DNA of 64,000 nucleotides from an uncultured Pseudohongiella sp. Lineage in GTDB: Bacteria; Pseudomonadota; Gammaproteobacteria; Pseudomonadales; Pseudohongiellaceae. The notes under the pieces were generated by a model, which did not search any database, was not told the origin of the DNA, and saw only the letters and a program-made list of their open reading frames with translations. The stretch is from the NCBI GenBank assembly GCA_902531515.1, contig CACAEJ010000002.1, forward strand, positions 1 through 64,000, written 5' to 3'. Below are positions 31,690 to 43,794 of the stretch, piece after piece (position 1 is the first letter of the stretch; the number at the start of each line of letters is the position of its first letter). Made by a program: the position numbers and the translations under genes.

Positions 31690-31857
31690 AGGCTTTCTTT
31701 CAGTCTTTTTGTCAAGAAAACTGACAGTAAAATGGGAAGTTTGGCCGATTTTAGTACCTTGAATTTCTTGAAAAAATTTGCTTTCAGAGGTATTGTTTTA
31801 ATCTACACGAAAAGTGTGTTCGGGACTAAGAATAAATTGCCCACTTCGGAGGCGAAA

Positions 31858-34488
31858 ATGCACGTAAAATCCCCGTCAGTTCGAGCATTGTTTGAAACTT
31901 TTTTTTGTTCGATGATCCTCTTTGCCGCAGTTTGCTCGCCGGCTCAACTCTGGGGGCAGTCAGATGCGGAATTCTTTTCCCACGAAATCAGACCGATAAT
32001 GGAGCGCACCTGCTGGAATTGCCATGGGGAGGCGGTTAAAAGTTCTGGTCTGGATCTGAGTACACGCGAGGCGGCGATTGAGGGCGGGAATCGAGGCCCT
32101 GCAATAGTCCCCGGCAATGCCGAGGAAAGCAGACTGTTCCGTCAGTTAGCTGGTTTGGAGGGACCTCAGATGCCTCTTGGAGTTCCGTTGGCAGAGGAAG
32201 AGATAGAGAAGTTTCGAACCTGGATCAACAATGGAGCCGTTTGGGATGCTGGCCCAGCAACCACAGTCGCTGCCAGTGAGTTTTCAGCATTTGCCACGGA
32301 GGTGCCCGCTTCAGCCCGAAGTTACTGGGCTTTTCAGTTACCTGAGAAATCTGAGATTCCTCAATTTGAAAAATTCGAGCATCCGATAGATTCTTTTCTG
32401 GAGGAAAAACGTAGAGAAGAAGGTTTAAAATTTGCGCCTCAGGCGGATAGGTTGACGCTACTTAGGAGGGCGTATTTAGATTTGGTCGGATTGCCACCGA
32501 CCGTTGAGGAAACTGAGGAATTTTTGAATGACACCAGGCCAGAGGCTTGGGAAAAACTAATCGATAAGTTACTGGCATCTTCACATTACGGTGAGCGTTG
32601 GGGTCGACACTGGCTTGATGTCGCAAGGTACGCGGATTCGGATGGCTACGAGCAGGATGTGGATAGATCAAATGCCTGGCGCTATCGAGATTACGTTGTG
32701 AACGCGTTTAACAATGATAAGCCTCATGATCAGTTCATCACAGAGCAGATTGCTGGCGATGAGCTAGATACAATAACTCATGAGTCCCGGGTTGCAACTG
32801 GATTTTTGAGAGCGGGTCCTAGAGTGAACTTCCGGGAAAAAGATAACCCGGAGCGCCGATGGGACTATCTGGATGATGTGGTTGCAACGGTTGGCCGCGG
32901 TGTCCTAGGTATGACCATACAGTGCGCACGATGTCATGACCATAAATTTGATCCTATCCTACAGAAAGATTATTACAGCATGACCTCCTCGATATTTGGT
33001 TATGTCGAGACGGACTGGCCAATGTTGCCAGATGAGCAGGCCTTGGAATATCTGTCAAAAACGGCTGAGTTTGACGATCGAGTTTCATCTGTTAGAGAGC
33101 AGATACGCGAGATCGAGCAGCCCTATTTAACAGAATTGAAACTTGATCGAATTCGAAATGAATTTCCAGCTGACATACTCGAAGCGGTGCTAATTCCAGA
33201 GGATGATCGAACCGACGGTCAGAAGTTGCTGGCAGCGCAGGTGCTAACTCTCGGTGTGCCAAGAGACAAGGTAGATGCCGCAATGTCCGCAGAAGCAAAG
33301 GCGCAACGGGAAAGTTTGCGAGAACTAATCGCCGAGGTCGAGGCGCAGAGGCCTGAAGAGCCACCTATGATTGAGGTAGTCACAGATGGTGACTACAGAT
33401 ACACGCCGGACAGAGCAGGAGATAATGTTCTCGGTTGTCCGGAATGTCGAATTAAGATGGACCAACCCGGCAGTTTTTTGCATGACGGCAAGGGCGATTA
33501 TGAAGTTCCACCTGCCCCCTTTCTAATTCGCGGAGACCCTTTTAGTGAAGGGCCTGAGCTTGAGCCAGATTTCCTAACGGTGGCCAAATACGGTAATCCG
33601 CCTGTGGAAATTCCTAGATCCAACGGTAGAACCTCTGGGCGTCGTCTTGCATTAGCGCAGTGGCTCACTTCAGAAGATAATCCGCTTACCGCACGTGTTT
33701 GGGTAAATCGGGTTTGGCATCACCATTTTGGCAGAGGTATCGTTTCTAGTTTGGACAATTTTGGTGTTGTAGGGGAGAGGCCGACTCATCCCAAATTATT
33801 GGATTGGCTTGCGGTTGAATTCATGGAGAGCGGTTGGAGCACCAAGGAGTTACACCGAACAATCATGACATCGGAGGCCTATAAGATGGCTTCAGCCTAC
33901 GAAAACGATGAAAATTCGTTGGCTGATTTGGAGAACCATCTGCTTTGGAAGTACAGACCCCAAAGACTTGAGGCTGAGGCGATCCGAGACGTAATTATGG
34001 CGACAAGTGGTGGTATTGATTTATCGGTTGGCGGTAAGCCGATATTTCCTTACATTCCCCAGGAAATTCTGGATACAGCAGTTTTGTTTGGTCGTTGGGA
34101 CAATGAGGCAGATGGTCCCGATGTATGGAGACGCAGTCTGTATGTTTATCGAAGGCGTACACTGAGTTTTCCTTTCTTTGAGACGTTTGATCTGCCAGAT
34201 CAGAATCAGACCATCAACATTCGAAACACCTCAACTGTGGCCCCCCAGGCTCTGACCCTGATGAATAACCCCTTCATATTAAACCAGGCTGAATTATTTT
34301 CAGACACTATTGAAGAAAAGGTGCCCTATGACATAGATCAGCAGGTGGCAATGGTCTACCAAACAGCGTTAACTCGACCGCCCACGCAAGAGGAAGCTGA
34401 AGTGGGGCGGCAGCTAGTTGAGCTGGGCTCCCTCGATGATCTTACTCACGTAGTGTTCAATTTGAGCGAATTCCTATACAGGAGATAG
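31858..34488 (+). CDS. PSD1-type protein: planctomycete cytochrome c + DUF1549 + DUF1553
   Basis: CWNCHGEAVKSSGLDLSTREAAIEGG; RAYLDLVGLPPTVEE; GERWGRHWLDVARYADSDGYE; TARVWVNRVWHHHFGRGIV. Track start 31732; ATG at 31858 is closer to the signal sequence. Confidence 0.92.
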   Translation: MHVKSPSVRALFETFFCSMILFAAVCSPAQLWGQSDAEFFSHEIRPIMERTCWNCHGEAVKSSGLDLSTREAAIEGGNRGPAIVPGNAEESRLFRQLAGLEGPQMPLGVPLAEEEIEKFRTWINNGAVWDAGPATTVAASEFSAFATEVPASARSYWAFQLPEKSEIPQFEKFEHPIDSFLEEKRREEGLKFAPQADRLTLLRRAYLDLVGLPPTVEETEEFLNDTRPEAWEKLIDKLLASSHYGERWGRHWLDVARYADSDGYEQDVDRSNAWRYRDYVVNAFNNDKPHDQFITEQIAGDELDTITHESRVATGFLRAGPRVNFREKDNPERRWDYLDDVVATVGRGVLGMTIQCARCHDHKFDPILQKDYYSMTSSIFGYVETDWPMLPDEQALEYLSKTAEFDDRVSSVREQIREIEQPYLTELKLDRIRNEFPADILEAVLIPEDDRTDGQKLLAAQVLTLGVPRDKVDAAMSAEAKAQRESLRELIAEVEAQRPEEPPMIEVVTDGDYRYTPDRAGDNVLGCPECRIKMDQPGSFLHDGKGDYEVPPAPFLIRGDPFSEGPELEPDFLTVAKYGNPPVEIPRSNGRTSGRRLALAQWLTSEDNPLTARVWVNRVWHHHFGRGIVSSLDNFGVVGERPTHPKLLDWLAVEFMESGWSTKELHRTIMTSEAYKMASAYENDENSLADLENHLLWKYRPQRLEAEAIRDVIMATSGGIDLSVGGKPIFPYIPQEILDTAVLFGRWDNEADGPDVWRRSLYVYRRRTLSFPFFETFDLPDQNQTINIRNTSTVAPQALTLMNNPFILNQAELFSDTIEEKVPYDIDQQVAMVYQTALTRPPTQEEAEVGRQLVELGSLDDLTHVVFNLSEFLYRR

Positions 34489-34494
34489 CGAAAC

Positions 34495-35967
34495 ATGACT
34501 CATAAGCCCAAGAAAAAGATATGGTCACGCCGTGATTTCCTGATGCAATCTGGTGGAGGGATGGCCGGTTTGGCGCTAGCTACCTTGATGAATGATGACA
34601 AAGTGTTTGCCCAGGATGCCATCTTGAGTGGTGATCAATGCAGTGCTGTCTTCCCGGGAGCGTTCGAGCCAAAGTCGCCGCATTTCAAGCCGCGAGCAAA
34701 AAGCGTAATTTCCTTATTTATGAGCGGTGGTCCAAGTCAGGTGGATACCTTCGACTACAAACCTGCCCTTACGAAATACGCTGGAGTCCCGCTCGAAGAT
34801 TTAATCGGTGAAAAATTTGCCGTACGCCAGGGTATGCCGGGTCCACTAATGCCGAGTCCGTTCGAGTTTAAGCAGCACGGTGAGAGTGGTATGTGGGTGT
34901 CAGAACTTTTCCCGCACCTGGCCAAACAGGCGGATGACATTGCCTTTATCAAGTCCTTATACGGGCGTTCCAATGACCACATCCAGTCTACCTATGAAAT
35001 GCAGACCGGACAGATTAGGGTTGGTTTCCCCAGCGTTGGCTGCTGGGTGACCTACGGGCTGGGTTCCGAGAGTTCAAGTCTGCCAGGTTTTGTTGTGATG
35101 AACGACTATCGTGGAGGGCCCCTTGGTGGTCCCGCTGACTGGGGATCAGGTTTCATGCCGGCGAGTTACCAGGGAACCCTTTTTAGATCTTCAGGCGACC
35201 CGATTGTTGATCTTGAGGCTCCAGGGAATCTAACTACTGACCAACAACGAGCTAGACTTGAAGTGCTGGCTAAGCTTAATCAGATGGATATGGAAAAGTA
35301 TCCGGGTAACTCTGAGCTGGCCGCGCGGATTTCTTCCTACGAGCTTGCGTATCGTATGCAGGGATGTGCGCCTGAAGCGATAGACATCCGCTCCGAATCT
35401 GACGCAACAAAGAAGCTTTACGGAATTGATGAGGGAATTACCGAGCCGTTTGGTAAACAGTGCCTCATGGCACGCCGTCTGGTCGAGCGTGGAGTGCGTT
35501 TCGTTCAATTGTTTATGGGTGGCGTTGGCGTTCAGAACACCGATACCTGGGACGCCCACTCCAATCTTGTTGAAAATCATACACTTCATGCAAAGGAGTC
35601 AGACAAGCCGATAGCCGGTTTGATACAGGACCTTAAGGCCAGGGGATTACTCGAGGACACCTTAATTGTCTGGCACGGTGAATTTGGAAGAATGCCTATA
35701 TCCCAGCGTGGAATAGGGCGCGATCATAATCCGGGCACACAGACCGCGTTGATGATTGGCGCCGGCATTCAGGGTGGGCAGGAAATCGGCGCCTCAGACG
35801 AGTGGGGCTATAAGGCTTTCGATCAACCCATCTCCGCGCACGACATGCACGCAACGATCCTTCATCTCCTTGGGCTGGATCATGAGAAGCTGACTTACCG
35901 CTACAGTGGGCGGGACTATCGTTTGTCGGACATATCTGGCAAGCCAATCCCGCAGATCATTGCATAG
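34495..35967 (+). CDS. DUF1501 domain protein (sulfatase-fold), exported
   Basis: SRRDFLMQSGGGMAGLALA Tat-like signal; FMSGGPSQVDTFDYKP; LIVWHGEFGRMPISQRGIGRDHNPGTQTALMIGAGI. Confidence 0.93.
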   Translation: MTHKPKKKIWSRRDFLMQSGGGMAGLALATLMNDDKVFAQDAILSGDQCSAVFPGAFEPKSPHFKPRAKSVISLFMSGGPSQVDTFDYKPALTKYAGVPLEDLIGEKFAVRQGMPGPLMPSPFEFKQHGESGMWVSELFPHLAKQADDIAFIKSLYGRSNDHIQSTYEMQTGQIRVGFPSVGCWVTYGLGSESSSLPGFVVMNDYRGGPLGGPADWGSGFMPASYQGTLFRSSGDPIVDLEAPGNLTTDQQRARLEVLAKLNQMDMEKYPGNSELAARISSYELAYRMQGCAPEAIDIRSESDATKKLYGIDEGITEPFGKQCLMARRLVERGVRFVQLFMGGVGVQNTDTWDAHSNLVENHTLHAKESDKPIAGLIQDLKARGLLEDTLIVWHGEFGRMPISQRGIGRDHNPGTQTALMIGAGIQGGQEIGASDEWGYKAFDQPISAHDMHATILHLLGLDHEKLTYRYSGRDYRLSDISGKPIPQIIA

Positions 35968-35991
35968 CCCTCAGAAGCGAGGTGCAGTAAC

Positions 35992-36030
35992 AAGGGGTAG
36001 ATATTGATTTCTAATGTCTGCCCCTTTTTA
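35992..36030 (+). terminator. Rho-independent terminator
   Basis: AAGGGGTAGA...TGTCTGCCCCTTTTT hairpin after the 35967 stop. Confidence 0.82.
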
Positions 36031-36047
36031 GTATTGAGAGAAAGATT

Positions 36048-38150
36048 ATGATGGGTAAAAAGTTTAGAGTTGTGACAAGAGTTTTCTGGGCGATCGGTGG
36101 TTTTCTCATCTCCAGTATTATTTATTCACAGGAAAACGTTTTCTATACGGAGTCGCAGGCATCAGCCGGGCAGCTGACATATGAGGAGCGCTGTGCGACC
36201 TGTCATGGTTATAATCTTGAGGGCTTTGAGCTGGCACCCAGCCTTGGTGGTAACCTGTTCAGTCGAAGGTTCGGTGACCGCTCTGCTGACTACCTTGCGC
36301 GCAACGTGCAGCGCATGCCTCCGAATGAAGCTGGTTTGTCTCGGGAGGAGACGGCGAACGTGCTTGCCTATCTCTTTAGCAGAAACGGGGTTGAGGCGGG
36401 CACGCAAGCATTGTCTGCCGATATTGATTTGCTCGCCGCTTATATGATACCGGCGCAGGAACTTGTGGACTCACGTTTCACTCCCAGGCTGCCAAGCTAT
36501 GCCACCAACGGCCCCTTGCAGCCGAACAGCCGGCTCAATGATCTTACTCCTGTCACTAACGATATGCTCCTTAACCCGCCAGCTAGCGACTGGCTTGTCT
36601 GGAGACGCACGCACGCAAACCTGGGACACAGCCCACTGTCCGACATCAGTAAAGAAAACGTTGATGATTTAAGGCTCGCGTGGACCTGGTCGCTGCCCCC
36701 GGGTGCAAACATGATGACCCCGATTGTTCATGACGATGTCATGTTCACGCTGAGCTCCGGAGATGTCGTTCAGGCAATTGATGCGACGACCGGTGACCTA
36801 CTCTGGGCCTATCAGCATGAGATTGACGGCGACAAGCCGTCTGAGTCAAAGAAGGGCGTAGCAATCTGGGAGGACAAAATTATTGTTGGCACCTCCGATA
36901 TCAAATTAATTGCCATCGAGGCGAAGACCGGCAGGCTTGCTTGGGAGCATGAGATCGAGACCCACGGTGAGACTGATCACCGGTTCAAGTCGGCTCCGAT
37001 GATAGTAAACGATAAGGCTATATTTGGTCTTGTCGGGCAGATGGCCGTTGAGGGCGGTAACTTTATTGTTGCCATCGACCTGAACACCCATGAAGAGGCC
37101 TGGCGCTTTTATACCATTGCACGGCCAGACGAGGCTTTTGGTAACAGCTGGAACGGACTAAGCCTAGAGGAGAGGACCGGCGGATCTGTCTGGACGCCTG
37201 GCAGCTATGACCCCGAAACCAATCTGGTTTACTTCGGGCCCGCACCGACATATGACACGGTCACCATGAGGGAATTTAGGAACGTGCCAGGTACCACTTC
37301 TGACGCGCTGTATACCAATTCGACTATAGCCCTTGATGCTGATACCGGAGAGCTGGCCTGGCATTTTCAGCACGTCAGGAATGATCTGCTTGACCTAGAC
37401 TGGGCATTTGAGCGTCAGATTATGGAGCTGCCATTTAATGGTGAGATGCGCCGGGCCGTGGTTACGGGCGGAAAGGCCGCAATCTTTGAGGCGATGGACG
37501 CGGTGACCGGTGAGTACCTGTTCTCGATTGATCTTGATATGCAGAATGTGTTCAGTGAGATTGATCCGCGCACGGGAGACAAGACCATGTTTCCCGAAGC
37601 CGTGCTGCAACCTGGGGAAGATACGCCGGGTCTTGCCAAGAATGGTGTTTGTCCGGATGCGCTTGGCGCGAGGAACATGCAGACCACTTCCTATAACCCG
37701 GATACCGGGATGCTCTACGTGCCGCTGCAGGATACCTGCATCAATAATCTGACCGGCCGGCGCTGGCAGAAATATCCGACCGTTGAGTATGAGGGGAAGT
37801 GGGGTCTGGTGAAGGCCGTGAACTTAAAAACTCGAGAGGTTGAGTGGACTACTCGTCAGTTTGCGCCGCCCGCAAGTGGCCACCTGACGACAGATTCCGG
37901 TTTGCTCTTTCGCGGGACCATAGACAGAATGTTTCAAGTCGTCGACCAGGAAAACGGTGAGGTTTTATGGGAGCAGCGGCTGGACAATGCGCCAACATCC
38001 TACCCGATCACTTACATGGCAGATGGGAGGCAGTATGTTGCGGTGGCAACCAACTCGGGTAGTTATTTTGCCAATGGCATGGAGAGAACCACCGGCATAA
38101 CCAACTCTCCTACAGGGGCATCATTATGGGTATTTGCAACTCCTAAATAA
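36048..38150 (+). CDS. PQQ-dependent dehydrogenase with N-terminal cytochrome c domain
   Basis: CATCHGYNLEGFEL heme motif; repeated PQQ-propeller motifs ATTGDLLWAYQHE, KTGRLAWEHEIE, DTGELAWHFQHVRNDLLDLDWAFE. Confidence 0.92.
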   Translation: MMGKKFRVVTRVFWAIGGFLISSIIYSQENVFYTESQASAGQLTYEERCATCHGYNLEGFELAPSLGGNLFSRRFGDRSADYLARNVQRMPPNEAGLSREETANVLAYLFSRNGVEAGTQALSADIDLLAAYMIPAQELVDSRFTPRLPSYATNGPLQPNSRLNDLTPVTNDMLLNPPASDWLVWRRTHANLGHSPLSDISKENVDDLRLAWTWSLPPGANMMTPIVHDDVMFTLSSGDVVQAIDATTGDLLWAYQHEIDGDKPSESKKGVAIWEDKIIVGTSDIKLIAIEAKTGRLAWEHEIETHGETDHRFKSAPMIVNDKAIFGLVGQMAVEGGNFIVAIDLNTHEEAWRFYTIARPDEAFGNSWNGLSLEERTGGSVWTPGSYDPETNLVYFGPAPTYDTVTMREFRNVPGTTSDALYTNSTIALDADTGELAWHFQHVRNDLLDLDWAFERQIMELPFNGEMRRAVVTGGKAAIFEAMDAVTGEYLFSIDLDMQNVFSEIDPRTGDKTMFPEAVLQPGEDTPGLAKNGVCPDALGARNMQTTSYNPDTGMLYVPLQDTCINNLTGRRWQKYPTVEYEGKWGLVKAVNLKTREVEWTTRQFAPPASGHLTTDSGLLFRGTIDRMFQVVDQENGEVLWEQRLDNAPTSYPITYMADGRQYVAVATNSGSYFANGMERTTGITNSPTGASLWVFATPK

Positions 38151-38711: not shown

Positions 38712-39215
38712 TTACTGGTATCGGATAGGTGCGGTTGTAACTCGCACTCTCGATTCCACGTAGGTTATCGAGTCTCCGTCAATACTGCTGAACCAATGCG
38801 GCGTACCCGGTTGCAAAACCAGTATGTCACCCTCGCTTACCTCCCTGGCGAGGCCACCCTGAATCCCGTGAAGCGTTCTAATAACATCATCGCTGGTCTG
38901 CTCGGCTAGCGGAGTGATCAAAAGTCCGCCTGTTACCAATGTGCCGCTGCCTTCTAGGATTCTATAGATTTCTACACTGTAGGGGTGCATGACGGAGTAC
39001 TGCGGTAAGCCACTCATTCGGCGTCTAACTGAAATTCCGGGTGAAATACTGACTGACACGCCGGCGGCAGAGGTCGAATTGCGAGCTGCCTCGTCAAGCT
39101 CGGCGAGTATCTCCGGCCCTGGTTTATAAATTGCGGGAGGTGCACCTGATTGTTGAGCGAAGCTGTTGATAAAGAAAAAGGCAGCGGCTAATCCGAGTGC
39201 GGCTCTAATTTTCAT
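38712..39215 (-). CDS. Exported cupin-like protein
   Basis: Signal peptide MKIRAALGLAAAFFFINSFAQQ; VEIYRILEGSGTLVTGGLL...VSEGDILVLQPGTPHWFSSIDG. Confidence 0.8.
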   Translation of the reverse strand: MKIRAALGLAAAFFFINSFAQQSGAPPAIYKPGPEILAELDEAARNSTSAAGVSVSISPGISVRRRMSGLPQYSVMHPYSVEIYRILEGSGTLVTGGLLITPLAEQTSDDVIRTLHGIQGGLAREVSEGDILVLQPGTPHWFSSIDGDSITYVESRVRVTTAPIRYQ

Positions 39216-39223
39216 CTGAAATG

Positions 39224-39361
39224 TTAGGCTCTTGCGTTGACCATGAGGAATCCCAGCAGGGCCGTCTCGATGGCATCCGCAAACCCCGGTATAAAAATTA
39301 AACTAAACACGATTACGGCGGAAAGGATTCCGCAGAGCTTTAAATATTTTTTGTTATCCAT
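39224..39361 (-). CDS. Small membrane-peptide paralogue 1 (45 aa): MDNKKYLKLCGILSAVIVFSLIFIPGFADAIETALLGFLMVNARA
   Basis: Manual reverse-strand translation; gapless alignment with the two neighbouring ORFs; GGAGAG 9 nt before ATG. Not in the supplied ORF track (below its length cut-off). Confidence 0.8.
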   Translation of the reverse strand: MDNKKYLKLCGILSAVIVFSLIFIPGFADAIETALLGFLMVNARA

Positions 39362-39395
39362 TCGTTTTAACTCTCCGCTTGGTTTGAAAATGCTA

Positions 39396-39545
39396 CTAAT
39401 ACGGTCTCTCAGCCCTGGCGTTATTCCCCAGCCAGGAAAGCATTCTTGTTTCGACAGTGTCTGACAATCCAGGTATAAAAAGAATACTCATAGACGTAGC
39501 TAGCACCACAGCAGCGCAAAGCATCAGGTAATTTTTAGTTTTCAA
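39396..39545 (-). CDS. Small membrane-peptide paralogue 2 (49 aa): (TTG)MKTKNYLMLCAAVVLATSMSILFIPGLSDTVETRMLSWLGNNARAERPY
   Basis: Manual reverse-strand translation; GAGAGG upstream of TTG; shares [KN]YL.LC / IPGL.D..ET / ML.WLG.NA with its neighbours. Confidence 0.8.
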   Translation of the reverse strand: MKTKNYLMLCAAVVLATSMSILFIPGLSDTVETRMLSWLGNNARAERPY

Positions 39546-39607
39546 ATGAAGACCTCTCTATTACTAATATCTGTAAGACTATCTTTTTCTTATCTAAGCG
39601 AAACCTT

Positions 39608-39757
39608 TTAGGTTGACATCAACTCTCCCGCATTGCTCCCCAGCCATATGAGCATTCCAGTCTCTATTGATTCAGATAGCCCGGGTATTAAAAGAATACC
39701 CATTACTGTCATAAGCGCAATAGCGGCACAAAGTTTAAGATACTTTTTAGTTTCCAA
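39608..39757 (-). CDS. Small membrane-peptide paralogue 3 (49 aa): (TTG)METKKYLKLCAAIALMTVMGILLIPGLSESIETGMLIWLGSNAGELMST
   Basis: Manual reverse-strand translation; GAGGAA Shine-Dalgarno overlapping the stop of the upstream gene; close similarity to paralogue 2. Confidence 0.82.
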   Translation of the reverse strand: METKKYLKLCAAIALMTVMGILLIPGLSESIETGMLIWLGSNAGELMST

Positions 39758-39768
39758 TTTCGAGTTCC

Positions 39769-40317
39769 TCAGTTAACTTCCCTGGGGACAAGCTCGAATA
39801 CCCAAGATTGTCCGGCCTCAATGCCGGCCCGTGTTCCGGCAATGGCCTGAGCGCTGGCGCTGGGGGCGCCCCCGTATTTCGTGATGAGCTTTGCAGCAAC
39901 GCCGTCAAGTATGTCTCCTTCTTTGATTCGCACTAAAGTTCTGGGATATCTGACCCCATCTACTCGCAATACTCCCTGATTGTTGCCTTCGTCGGCCTCA
40001 AACGCCCACTCCTTCCAGAGCTTTCCTAGCATCGTTGTCATGTAGCCCGAAATGATAAAGAGCCTGCCATCACTTTCTAACACGTATATTAGTCGTGAGG
40101 CCATTGGGTCATTCAACTGAAGTTCTACCAGGCGAATGTCATCGGTAAAGCTCCAGTCCGGTTCGGGTCCTGTATGCAGCCGTCCGGTGGTCATCTCCCC
40201 ACCAGGGAATAATATCGACGGACCGTCAGCGTTTCTGTTTTCGACTCTCAAGGTTGCCATACCCACTGCCGGTATTAGTATTAGTATTCCAAGTACCTGA
40301 AGGACTATCTTTTTCAT
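39769..40317 (-). CDS. Exported hypothetical protein
   Basis: Signal peptide MKKIVLQVLGILILIPAVGMA; ORF sits in the same-strand block between the 40355 gene and the small peptides. Confidence 0.7.
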   Translation of the reverse strand: MKKIVLQVLGILILIPAVGMATLRVENRNADGPSILFPGGEMTTGRLHTGPEPDWSFTDDIRLVELQLNDPMASRLIYVLESDGRLFIISGYMTTMLGKLWKEWAFEADEGNNQGVLRVDGVRYPRTLVRIKEGDILDGVAAKLITKYGGAPSASAQAIAGTRAGIEAGQSWVFELVPREVN

Positions 40318-40354: not shown

Positions 40355-41308
40355 TCAGTTCTCTGATGAGTTCTGCTCGAGTGCTCTCGCTTCTTCAGCG
40401 CGAGCTCCCCTTAGAATGTACGTCATTGCATAGTTCCCCTCGTGACAGGCGTACTCATACTGCTTGTAGTCGGCCAATCGAGGCATCGGCCTTATTGCAG
40501 TCCAGGGCTGCGTGTAAACAGTTGGGTCCTCAACAGTGAATGAGTAGTCGATCATGTCCTCACCGACCCGCCTGAATCTCTCGACCGCAACGGTGTTCCG
40601 GGAGGAAGGGAAACGGTGACGTGTCTTTTCGCTGAAATTAGCAGTCCGGACTACTAATGTATCTCCGTCCCAGTACCCTCGAGAATCGCCGTTCCACTGC
40701 CGAATGTTGTCGTGGAGTTGGGGTCGATCATCAATCGGAATAATCCGCACGTCATGAATCATCTCTACATGGATCGCGACAAAATTTTCATTCTGTACGA
40801 TGTGGTAGGAATTGTTGTAGCCAGACGAAACTGGCGGGACGCCATGGTAGGATATGCACCTATCCCAGTTCGTTCGATCCAGCCATGAGTCTGCATCATG
40901 ATCGCGCAAATATTCTGCCCGCTCGCGCTGGCTGGCTATAGCCGCTTCAGTAATTGGCAGGCGCCCGTTGGGTGGATCGACAATGAGAGAGGTTCTAAAA
41001 TCTGCGGAAATCTCGCCTCTGTCAAACCACTGATAGTTATAGCTCCCAACATCACCCGGCCTATCGGGAGAATCCTGTTGGGTGTTGGCGAAAATTTGGG
41101 CTGCTTCCTCGGGAGTATAGAACTCCTTATCCCCAAGACGCTCAGGTCTTTGCAAAGGGGTCAAACTAGCATATGACCACATGCCTGAAATGTCTGGATC
41201 TCCCCAGGGAGTGCGTTCGCTGTAAGAGCTGTCCGTTTGGGCAACAACGTTGCCTGCAAGTAAAATGGTTGTAACAACAACTAGCAGAGTGATTGACTTT
41301 GCTTTCAT
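40355..41308 (-). CDS. Exported protein of unknown function ('TPWGDPDISGMW' family); paralogue of 17833-18891
   Basis: SERTPWGDPDISGMWSYASLTPLQRPERLGDKEF and DNIRQWNGDSRGYWDGDTLVVRTANF. Confidence 0.8.
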   Translation of the reverse strand: MKAKSITLLVVVTTILLAGNVVAQTDSSYSERTPWGDPDISGMWSYASLTPLQRPERLGDKEFYTPEEAAQIFANTQQDSPDRPGDVGSYNYQWFDRGEISADFRTSLIVDPPNGRLPITEAAIASQRERAEYLRDHDADSWLDRTNWDRCISYHGVPPVSSGYNNSYHIVQNENFVAIHVEMIHDVRIIPIDDRPQLHDNIRQWNGDSRGYWDGDTLVVRTANFSEKTRHRFPSSRNTVAVERFRRVGEDMIDYSFTVEDPTVYTQPWTAIRPMPRLADYKQYEYACHEGNYAMTYILRGARAEEARALEQNSSEN

Positions 41309-41407: not shown

Positions 41408-42280
41408 TTACTCTGAAACGTCAACGCGAAGGAACCCGTTGGTCCAGCAGCAGTGAAATTCAAATCCATATGTAGGTTCCCTCCGTCGCTCGGTATCGTT
41501 TATTGCCTGGATTCGAAGTAGGTAACTTCCGGGCTGACTAAAGGTCGCTGTTGATTCTATAACCCCCTCAGAGACTTCAAGTCTTGCCTCAGATTCCGAG
41601 AATACGACTGCATTGGGGCCCTGATGCAGGGTCCAGTTAACCCATGTGCCAGGCTCACTATGTCGAATTCGAGCAATAAGATTGACTGGTTCTCCCACTC
41701 GGGTTCGTCTCGGACCCTCGAAGAGACCGCGTCTTCCCCGGAAACTGGGGGGGTTGTCATTCAGGCTAAGGTAGGGCGCTGAAGTATCTCTACCCGAGGT
41801 TTCTTCTTCGTCTAGCACATAAGAGGGGATTAGAGTTCCCGGAACAGACAACTTTGTGCCTTGGGTTTGTAAAGTCCATATCACGTCATTCATACCGAAA
41901 TTCTCGCTGACGATTACTGAAAAAGCGCACCAGTGTCGTCTGAATTCACGAGTTAGTTCAGGGTCAGGGATCGTGTCAAAGTGAGTTGGTTGGACGCCAT
42001 CAAATTCAGCGGGTTCTATAAAGTTTTTTGCGCCAAGGGGTACGTCAATTTCTTGTTCGAAATTCATATTGAAATATCCGAAGCAGAGAGTGAAAGAACC
42101 GTCGTCGTTGGGGAACCAGCCGTCAAAAAGAGGTACTACGTTTTGCCCGTCCGCACGGAGCGGTTCTTCGTAAATGGGGCTAAATACGTTTGAAGTCTGA
42201 GCAGTGCTCAAAGAGATGCCGCTCACAAGGACACAAAGCAGGAATCCTCTGCTTCCAACTAATCGCATCAAGATGTTCAT
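41408..42280 (-). CDS. Exported protein of unknown function ending in CCWTN motif; paralogue of 9730-10677
   Basis: Signal peptide; PLGAKNFIEPAEFDGVQPTHF; C-terminal HCCWTNGFLRVDVSE; 4-bp ATGA overlap with the upstream cytochrome/PHM-like gene. Confidence 0.8.
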   Translation of the reverse strand: MNILMRLVGSRGFLLCVLVSGISLSTAQTSNVFSPIYEEPLRADGQNVVPLFDGWFPNDDGSFTLCFGYFNMNFEQEIDVPLGAKNFIEPAEFDGVQPTHFDTIPDPELTREFRRHWCAFSVIVSENFGMNDVIWTLQTQGTKLSVPGTLIPSYVLDEEETSGRDTSAPYLSLNDNPPSFRGRRGLFEGPRRTRVGEPVNLIARIRHSEPGTWVNWTLHQGPNAVVFSESEARLEVSEGVIESTATFSQPGSYLLRIQAINDTERRREPTYGFEFHCCWTNGFLRVDVSE

Positions 42281-43611
42281 TGATCTCGCGACGCAGTCAT
42301 CCTCGCCTGACGTTTTGAGATTAGTTCTTCGTACTGTTCATCCGAGAGATAGGTAACACCAAGCCAAAGGTGCGACATTTCATCCACACCCCGTTGACCA
42401 AAAACTACCCATTGTCGCGGATCAGGATTGTGCGGATTTTGTGAGGTATTGTCCCAGGTCGAGGTAATTTTCAACATAGTGCCAGCTGGTAACAGCGGGG
42501 CCGAGTCTTCGGTAAATTCGTAATTTATTTGCCAGGAATGATCATACTTATCAACTCTCGCCAGCATTTCGCGACGACCGTCTGGGTATATAGCTTCAAG
42601 CGATTGCGCCCGACCTCGCATATGCATGTGGGGACGGAAACTGGTAATCAAAGCAGGTCGCTTCAGAACTCGGAATCCTTGTTGAGACTTCACAGAGTTT
42701 GGCGGTAGCAACAGGTCGTTTGCCCATAAACCACCGGGGCCAGAATCGGCAGCAAAGAACTGTTCACCCCGTGTTTGAAATTCAGGCTTATAACCTTTGG
42801 GATATAACCAAACAGCGGCCTCTGCCTGCTCGTTAGGCACTACTTCGCTGATGGGGAAATAGTGTAGATTCCAGTTAATAGTTCCCTCTGGGTAGATCAG
42901 CATACCCGTCCCTTCAGGGAATCGATCACCACCTTTTCCAACTCCCTGTCTGCCCACGGGGCCTGATGCTCTATTTCCGTTACCATCGTTTGATCTTAGT
43001 TGAGCGTGACCATGGTGGAGAACCTTGACGCCCAAAGGATAGGAACCTTTAAGTTCCGTCGCTCTAACATAGCGAGGTTCGTCAATCAGTCCTGCGAAAG
43101 ACGTATTACGAACCCACCATTGGTCCTGGGCATTGGCAGTAACGGTATAGGGTGGTGATTTGACTACGAAATCGGGCTCCCCCAATTCAGAGGCGAGTTG
43201 CCATTCGGACGCATCTGGCAGTTTTGGTTGAGCTGGCGTAAGTGCTGGGTCACCTTGGGGAGCCCCAGATTTAGCCCACTGAACTATTAATGAAACTTGT
43301 TCTTCTGATAGAGAGACATCGTTGTTATAGGTCTGAATTCCAACGGCTTTATCTAGATGCCAGGGCGGCATCTCTCGACGCTCTACCTTATAACTAATCA
43401 GAGGTGCCCAAGGTTGCGTTTCCTCAAAGGTAAGCAGAGACATAGGCCCAATCCCATCGGGATTATGGCAACTCACACACTTATCAAAAATTATTGTCGC
43501 AACATCCTTGCTATAGGTTACCTTCTCATCACTCGCCAAGGTGCCCTGACTTAATATCAGAGATGAAAAAAAACAATAAAAAAATGTTTTTAGCCATGTA
43601 GAGTTATTCAT
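42277..43611 (-). CDS. Exported c-type cytochrome / PHM-like protein; paralogue 5
   Basis: CVSCH heme motif; VLHHGHA, NLHYFP, RPHMHMRG, VDEMSHLW. Track ORF extends to 43749; ATG at 43611 (MNNSTWLKTFFYCFF) starts the signal peptide. Confidence 0.83.
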   Translation of the reverse strand: MNNSTWLKTFFYCFFSSLILSQGTLASDEKVTYSKDVATIIFDKCVSCHNPDGIGPMSLLTFEETQPWAPLISYKVERREMPPWHLDKAVGIQTYNNDVSLSEEQVSLIVQWAKSGAPQGDPALTPAQPKLPDASEWQLASELGEPDFVVKSPPYTVTANAQDQWWVRNTSFAGLIDEPRYVRATELKGSYPLGVKVLHHGHAQLRSNDGNGNRASGPVGRQGVGKGGDRFPEGTGMLIYPEGTINWNLHYFPISEVVPNEQAEAAVWLYPKGYKPEFQTRGEQFFAADSGPGGLWANDLLLPPNSVKSQQGFRVLKRPALITSFRPHMHMRGRAQSLEAIYPDGRREMLARVDKYDHSWQINYEFTEDSAPLLPAGTMLKITSTWDNTSQNPHNPDPRQWVVFGQRGVDEMSHLWLGVTYLSDEQYEELISKRQARMTASRDQ

Positions 43612-43794
43612 TATTGCCAGCCTCCGAATCAATAGATATACAGAACTGCATCCCCCAAAAACAATGGCTTTAGCATAATTGTGCTTTTTTAAAAAGTCTA
43701 CGTTAATCATTGAATTCTGGTAATTTAGATAAGCGCTTCGATGCCTCAACGCGATAGTTGTGGAAATCCCAAAATAACGTGGTAGGATTACGCT

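Follow-up and report, generated by a model that had tools for sequence, protein, structure and literature searches.

A conserved family of small putative membrane peptides encoded directly behind the gene of a predicted split-barrel protein in Pseudohongiella and related marine gammaproteobacteria

The window analyzed here, a stretch of 64,000 nucleotides of DNA from an uncultured Pseudohongiella sp., contains three consecutive mini-ORFs on its minus strand, which lie between the gene of a 182-aa protein, in the following referred to as the partner, and the gene of a cupin-like protein. Listed in the direction of transcription, and with "sub-lineage" denoting the relatives that carry arrays of several peptide copies, the genes of the locus are:

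42277..43749, minus strand: 490-aa PHM-like protein with weak cytochrome c similarity; local neighbor in the array-bearing sub-lineage
41408..42280, minus strand: 290-aa "CCWTN" protein with weak PKD similarity; local neighbor in the array-bearing sub-lineage
40355..41308, minus strand: exported protein of 317 aa belonging to an unnamed family; immediately upstream of the partner, as a frequent but not constant neighbor
39769..40317, minus strand: partner gene, 182 aa, with a predicted split beta-barrel and a putative export/anchor helix at the N-terminus; 11 nt separate its end from peptide copy 1
39608..39757, minus strand: peptide copy 1, 49 aa, TTG start; immediately follows the partner; member of the family profile
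39396..39545, minus strand: peptide copy 2, 49 aa, TTG start; member of the family profile
39224..39361, minus strand: peptide copy 3, 45 aa, ATG start; member of the family profile and of the "last copy" orthologue group
38712..39215, minus strand: cupin-like 167-aa protein, 8 nt after copy 3; Cupin_2 similarity below the cut-off

The three mini-ORFs were found just as described in the first-pass annotation of this DNA, including the two TTG starts, the alignment of their products without gaps and the Shine-Dalgarno-like motif ahead of each copy. Over the 45 gap-free columns of this alignment, copies 2 and 3 are 57% and 42% identical to copy 1, respectively, and the purine-rich stretches preceding the starts of copies 1, 2 and 3 read GAGGA (8 nt from the start), GAGAGG (7 nt) and GGAGAG (9 nt). 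The annotation had also pointed out that all three are missing from the ORF track; the ORFs are real, but their absence is an effect of length, since they fall below the cut-off of that track and appear once a lower one is applied. A search of the own genome with one peptide sequence yielded E-values of 8.9e-27, 1.1e-13, and 2.0e-7, and a profile search (E ≤ 1e-5) detected the family in 75 of 84 genomes of the same genus (Pseudohongiella/OM182-like marine gammaproteobacteria), the genomes compared being mostly incomplete MAGs. Both results imply that the ORFs are not a product of chance, and the second one answers the initial concern that homologues might be confined to this locus. The three ORFs of the window are thereby confirmed as conserved genes encoding related peptides.

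A search with one peptide sequence revealed relatives in 69 of 148 related genomes, and the profile also identified members in two other families of the order (f42 and f44), with peptide conservation spanning at least three families of the order. Named records with relatives belong to Pseudohongiella, the OM182 clade and other Pseudomonadales-type marine MAGs. Among 112 collected family members, which range from 41 to 49 aa in length, the start codon is ATG in 103 and a suitably placed Shine-Dalgarno-like tetramer is present in 101, and these two counts support the reading register of the ORFs. Five weak profile matches (G332, G227, G123, G308, and G127; E 0.003–0.008) were rejected as chance; for four of them (G332, G227, G308, and G127) neither a partner nor a matching small ORF was present and only unrelated frames were hit. 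The peptides of the window gave no match above noise to Pfam or NCBIfam, and sequence searches against PHROGs, PADLOC, and solved chains (PDB) yielded no match for the peptides either. They may stand as unnamed clusters in smORF catalogues such as GMSC (PMC11364881), and a literature search for OM182 together with small proteins returned nothing.

That the peptides are under selection at the protein level had originally been deduced from a comparison of the three copies with each other. This copy-to-copy argument could not decide the matter because synonymous sites between the copies are saturated or nearly so; the claim itself, however, is upheld by synonymous and non-synonymous counts between orthologues. 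Copy 1 differs from its orthologue in L163 by seven synonymous and two non-synonymous changes, copy 2 from its nearest relative, the orthologue in L131, by 18 and three, and copy 3 from that in L127 by about 24 and six. Over 39 independent pairs, 640 of 1366 synonymous and 695 of 3665 non-synonymous sites differ, corresponding to a pN/pS of 0.40 rather than the ratio near 1 that had been named as evidence against the proposal, and dN/dS lies between 0.02 and 0.5 for most of these pairs, with two outliers above 1. Purifying selection on the peptides is therefore strong.

The family comprises two subfamilies. Subfamily A, with the consensus M..KNYLILC......ILFVPG.SD.IE..LL.FLSTNAR, contains all three copies of the window, and subfamily B has the consensus MK.FY....A..LTVLAVLFVPGVDDFVEQTFQRYLGRAAR. 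Pro25, Glu32, and Leu39 are invariant in both (alignment A2). The conserved Cys10 reported initially is a property of one subfamily (64 of 67 rows of alignment A4) and is absent from subfamily B (...FVPGVDDFVEQTFQRYLGRAAR) and from a few other members. A lipoprotein reading of the "LKLC" motif as a lipobox was rejected: Leu, Ile, or Val instead of a small residue precedes the Cys, which stands too early (position 10) and is missing in subfamily B. A member of subfamily B is also found elsewhere in the same genome (contig C45, 5576–6237, minus strand; L053), where it forms a second partner-peptide pair beside a glyoxalase-type gene.

Regarding topology, the mean charge is +1.4 for the N-terminal flank and -1.2 for the C-terminal part, with the N-terminus being the more positive one in 111 of 112 members. 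This bias agrees with the earlier classification as single-TM or signal-anchor peptides, supports an inside position of the N-terminus and, together with the positive-inside rule, suggests that the C-terminal part lies outside. An AlphaFold2 model of the peptide (pLDDT 87.7) predicts a helix from residue 3 to 23, a break and a second helix from residue 25 to 43; the amphipathicity of the second helix was not significant when compared to shuffled sequences.

Arrays of two or three peptide copies occur in eleven loci. Between species, last copies share 68% identity on average, whereas first and last copy within one array are 42% identical, which indicates that the duplications are older than these species and that the copies have been kept distinct. 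Copy 3 of the window is 89% and 87% identical to the last copies of L127 and L128, respectively. First copies are more mixed, with 42% identity among themselves, so that some of them have been replaced.

The constant neighbor of the peptides, not named as such in the first-pass annotation, is the partner gene directly upstream. Of 80 GTDB loci retrieved by searching for the partner only, 77 have a peptide -11 to +76 nt after the partner stop, and several pairs overlap by 1 or 4 nt, as is typical of translational coupling. A close partner (E below 1e-60) is present in 74 of the 84 genomes of the genus, all of which also contain the peptide, and the nine genus genomes without a peptide are likewise without a close partner. 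Only G033 showed a peptide without a partner in this set; the peptide is situated at base 259 of its contig, so that the partner would fall off the contig end. In an order-wide sample of genomes, every significant peptide match (E < 1e-3) adjoins a partner match. On the partner tree, the peptide label requires four changes compared to a mean of 19.5 after shuffling, one of the four being an artefact of the cut-off, as L084 does carry a peptide. Distances between partners and between peptides correlate with a rho of 0.80 (permuted maximum 0.21), which is partly a reflection of shared vertical inheritance. No single ORF was found in which peptide and partner are fused (Rosetta stone).

A few loci depart from this arrangement. 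L190, L195, and L197 possess a close partner without a peptide, and a gene reading as a metallo-beta-lactamase-type protein follows the partner in its place; as all three belong to one closely related lineage, this looks like a single loss of the peptide. Conversely, in G004 (L035) and G070 (L045) two peptide copies are located directly behind the 317-aa gene while the partner gene is missing there, and G004 carries a partner-peptide pair on another contig (L006), the two copies having been left at the old place. It follows from these cases that neither gene is strictly needed at every locus. Distant partner paralogues (below about 185 bits) in the same or related genomes are without a peptide, and the same applies to L207 (222 bits), a paralogue from the own genome that is closer to the partner.

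The partner proteins, with lengths of about 172–190 aa across loci (alignment A3), start with a positively charged and then hydrophobic stretch followed by Pro and an A-x-A-like motif, which reads as a signal peptide or signal anchor. The AlphaFold2 model of the partner (pLDDT 84.8) consists of an N-terminal helix (residues 2–28) and a small beta-barrel. Foldseek matched this model to the split-barrel proteins MSMEG_2850 (E 2.3e-4) and Rv2991, and further to F420 reductases including Ddn as well as to the haem proteins HutZ and HugZ, with TM-scores (by target) of up to 0.67, to Ddn. As far as a predicted model can tell, the partner would thus have the split beta-barrel fold of FDORs, its top matches being FDOR-type and related proteins. 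Weak similarity to DUF2255 (PF10012) was detected in 12 of 34 partner proteins (best E 3.2e-6), and the best score of 27.8 bits lies below the Pfam gathering cut-off of 29.8, which makes the partner by sequence a distant relative of DUF2255 and not a member by that cut-off. Sequence searches for a solved homologue of the partner gave chance-level matches only, and a literature search for DUF2255 returned nothing.

With respect to a cofactor, the F420 biosynthesis marker cofD (TIGR01819) was found in none of 61 genus genomes while control genomes were positive, so that the use of F420 by the partner is unlikely; FMN or haem may serve in its place, and the partner alignment contains no invariant His or Cys. 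No relative of the partner was detected in 368 other genomes sampled from the class, which indicates that, within the genomes sampled, the pair does not extend beyond this order; titles naming other classes stand on a few GTDB records but are nominal MAG labels. The own genome encodes four further partner paralogues (L207–L210, 40–222 bits), none of them with a peptide, which amounts to several split-barrel paralogues per genome.

The genes flanking the pair vary freely. Among 38 pair loci, the preceding genes group into 19 clusters and the following genes into 25, and in five loci (L048, L054, L055, L058, and L060) both neighbors are on the opposite strand, leaving a bare two-gene unit. Partner and peptide are thus shown to form a movable two-gene unit. 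Genes upstream of it include those of an EamA transporter, a kelch protein, a PQQ dehydrogenase, a glyoxalase-type protein, a TonB receptor, a metallo-beta-lactamase/rhodanese protein, and an acetyltransferase. The link to the CCWTN and PHM-like genes suggested earlier did not hold, as these genes adjoin the peptides in one sub-lineage only, and the cupin-like gene is part of the same operon only in the array-bearing sub-lineage. Given the free variation of the flanking genes and the five loci in which the pair stands alone, the CCWTN, PHM-like and cupin-like neighbors are incidental. The family of the 317-aa protein, for which no significant Pfam or NCBIfam match was found, recurs ahead of the pair in roughly one third of the loci and looks like a large uncharacterized family. 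On the plus strand of the window, the genes at 31732–38150 are convergent with the peptide operon and occupy the same position in most array-bearing relatives (c4, c2, c1); judged from sequence, they would encode a DUF1549/DUF1553-type cytochrome-domain protein, a DUF1501-type protein, and a PQQ dehydrogenase.

Because they are nearly always encoded directly behind the gene of the barrel protein, the peptides are probably small helper subunits of it. Most likely, though with no more than moderate confidence on our part, the role of the peptide is that of a small helical subunit in the membrane by which the barrel protein is anchored, assembled or tuned. It would insert with its positive N-terminus in the cytoplasm and span the membrane with one helix (about residues 6–24), and after a kink at the invariant Pro the modeled second helix may bring the invariant residues Glu32 and Leu39 to the outward-facing side of the membrane. 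The partner would be exported and tethered through its N-terminal helix, and the peptide could bind it by means of the membrane helix, the outer helix, or both, and thereby anchor, oligomerize or tune it. In the OM182-like sub-lineage, the two or three old and divergent copies may form alternative or mixed complexes with one partner. A bolder version, according to which the barrel works only when complexed with its helix-Pro-helix subunit and the interchangeable copies of one marine lineage serve subunit switching, is speculative and in our judgment rather improbable. Of the functions initially offered for the peptides, that of a complex subunit fits best with the linkage in the GTDB loci and the genome-by-genome agreement with the partner, whereas a secreted signaling peptide found no support, since no peptidase, exporter or receptor gene was seen to be shared across the loci.

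The linkage and co-occurrence data would fit equally well with a peptide that acts as a transient assembly, insertion or stability factor for the partner, be it chaperone-like or as a protease adaptor, and the lineage of L190, L195, and L197, which does without the peptide, would be in agreement with such a role. Strong conservation over the whole length of 44 residues including the invariant Pro, Glu, and Leu and the retention of up to three copies are more natural for a structural subunit without being decisive, and we regard the transient factor as a less probable alternative. It is also conceivable, but unlikely, that peptide and barrel act in one process, for example the response to membrane stress, without touching each other and are linked only as an operon. 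Linkage by itself is no proof of contact and vertical inheritance can explain much of the distance correlation; nevertheless, the pair stayed together while its flanking genes were exchanged many times, and presence and absence of the two genes agree genome by genome.

Size, a single hydrophobic helix and tandem copies are features that the peptides share with small hydrophobic toxins of type I toxin-antitoxin systems and with arrays of membrane-active antimicrobial peptides. However, they invariably share the direction of one larger gene to which they are fixed, they are near-universal in the genus and limited to one order, they are absent from viral contigs as judged by the partner, and the searches of PADLOC for the peptides and of Rfam for an RNA at the locus gave no match, all of which renders this explanation very unlikely. 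A phage or defense origin was likewise rejected, based on the lack of PHROGs and PADLOC matches and of viral relatives of the partner, none of which was found. Even less probable are upstream-type regulatory or leader ORFs whose translation rather than product matters. The presence of short ORFs with Shine-Dalgarno motifs between operon genes speaks for this reading, but residues are kept while synonymous sites are near saturation, and the peptides often come last in the unit, at its 3′ end, and are followed by a gene on the opposite strand, in which case there is no downstream gene to be regulated. Chance ORFs or decaying duplicates, for which size alone speaks, are refuted by the conservation across families of the order and by the pN/pS over the independent pairs, and their probability is negligible.

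These results add an undescribed small-protein family with an unusually firm genetic partner; the family is near-universal across a marine genus rich in species and has no entry in the domain libraries searched. An unstudied split-barrel family related to DUF2255 thereby gains a testable membrane complex. The conserved pair represents a simple natural system for asking how a helix of about 45 residues supports an exported protein, the tandem copies offer a way to ask why one cell keeps several versions of a subunit, and the lineage of L190, L195, and L197 provides a natural case of peptide loss for comparison.

Small subunits of this kind have precedents. TorE binds its partner (reported as 4:4), strengthens its membrane anchoring and raises its efficiency (PMC6134056). 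Like TorE/NapE, the peptides have about 50 aa and one hydrophobic helix, and their gene stands beside that of a membrane-anchored partner with an exported domain. In contrast to TorE/NapE, the partner described here is a predicted split-barrel protein and not a NapC/NirT c-type cytochrome, the peptide loci share no common molybdoenzyme, and the peptides are distinguished by their helix-Pro-helix architecture with invariant Pro, Glu, and Leu as well as by tandem differentiated copies in one sub-lineage; a search of 31 peptides yielded no match to NapE-type Pfam profiles at E ≤ 1. CydX, a 37-aa single-helix subunit of cytochrome bd oxidase, is commonly left unannotated (PMC4325964) and is, similar to the peptides, encoded directly after its partner genes. 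The peptides gave no Pfam match to CydX (PF08173), Trp and Gly do not occur at the spacings of the CydX motif YxxWxxGx15E/D in alignment A2, and cydAB was absent from the peptide neighborhoods examined. As the tests by family profile, motif and synteny fail, TorE/NapE and CydX are best regarded as working precedents by analogy and not as relatives. The partner, in turn, resembles FDOR/Ddn, HutZ/HugZ, and DUF2255 proteins in its predicted split beta-barrel fold, and it would differ from these flavin-, deazaflavin- and haem-binding split-barrel proteins by its putative N-terminal export/anchor helix and by the membrane peptide linked to it.
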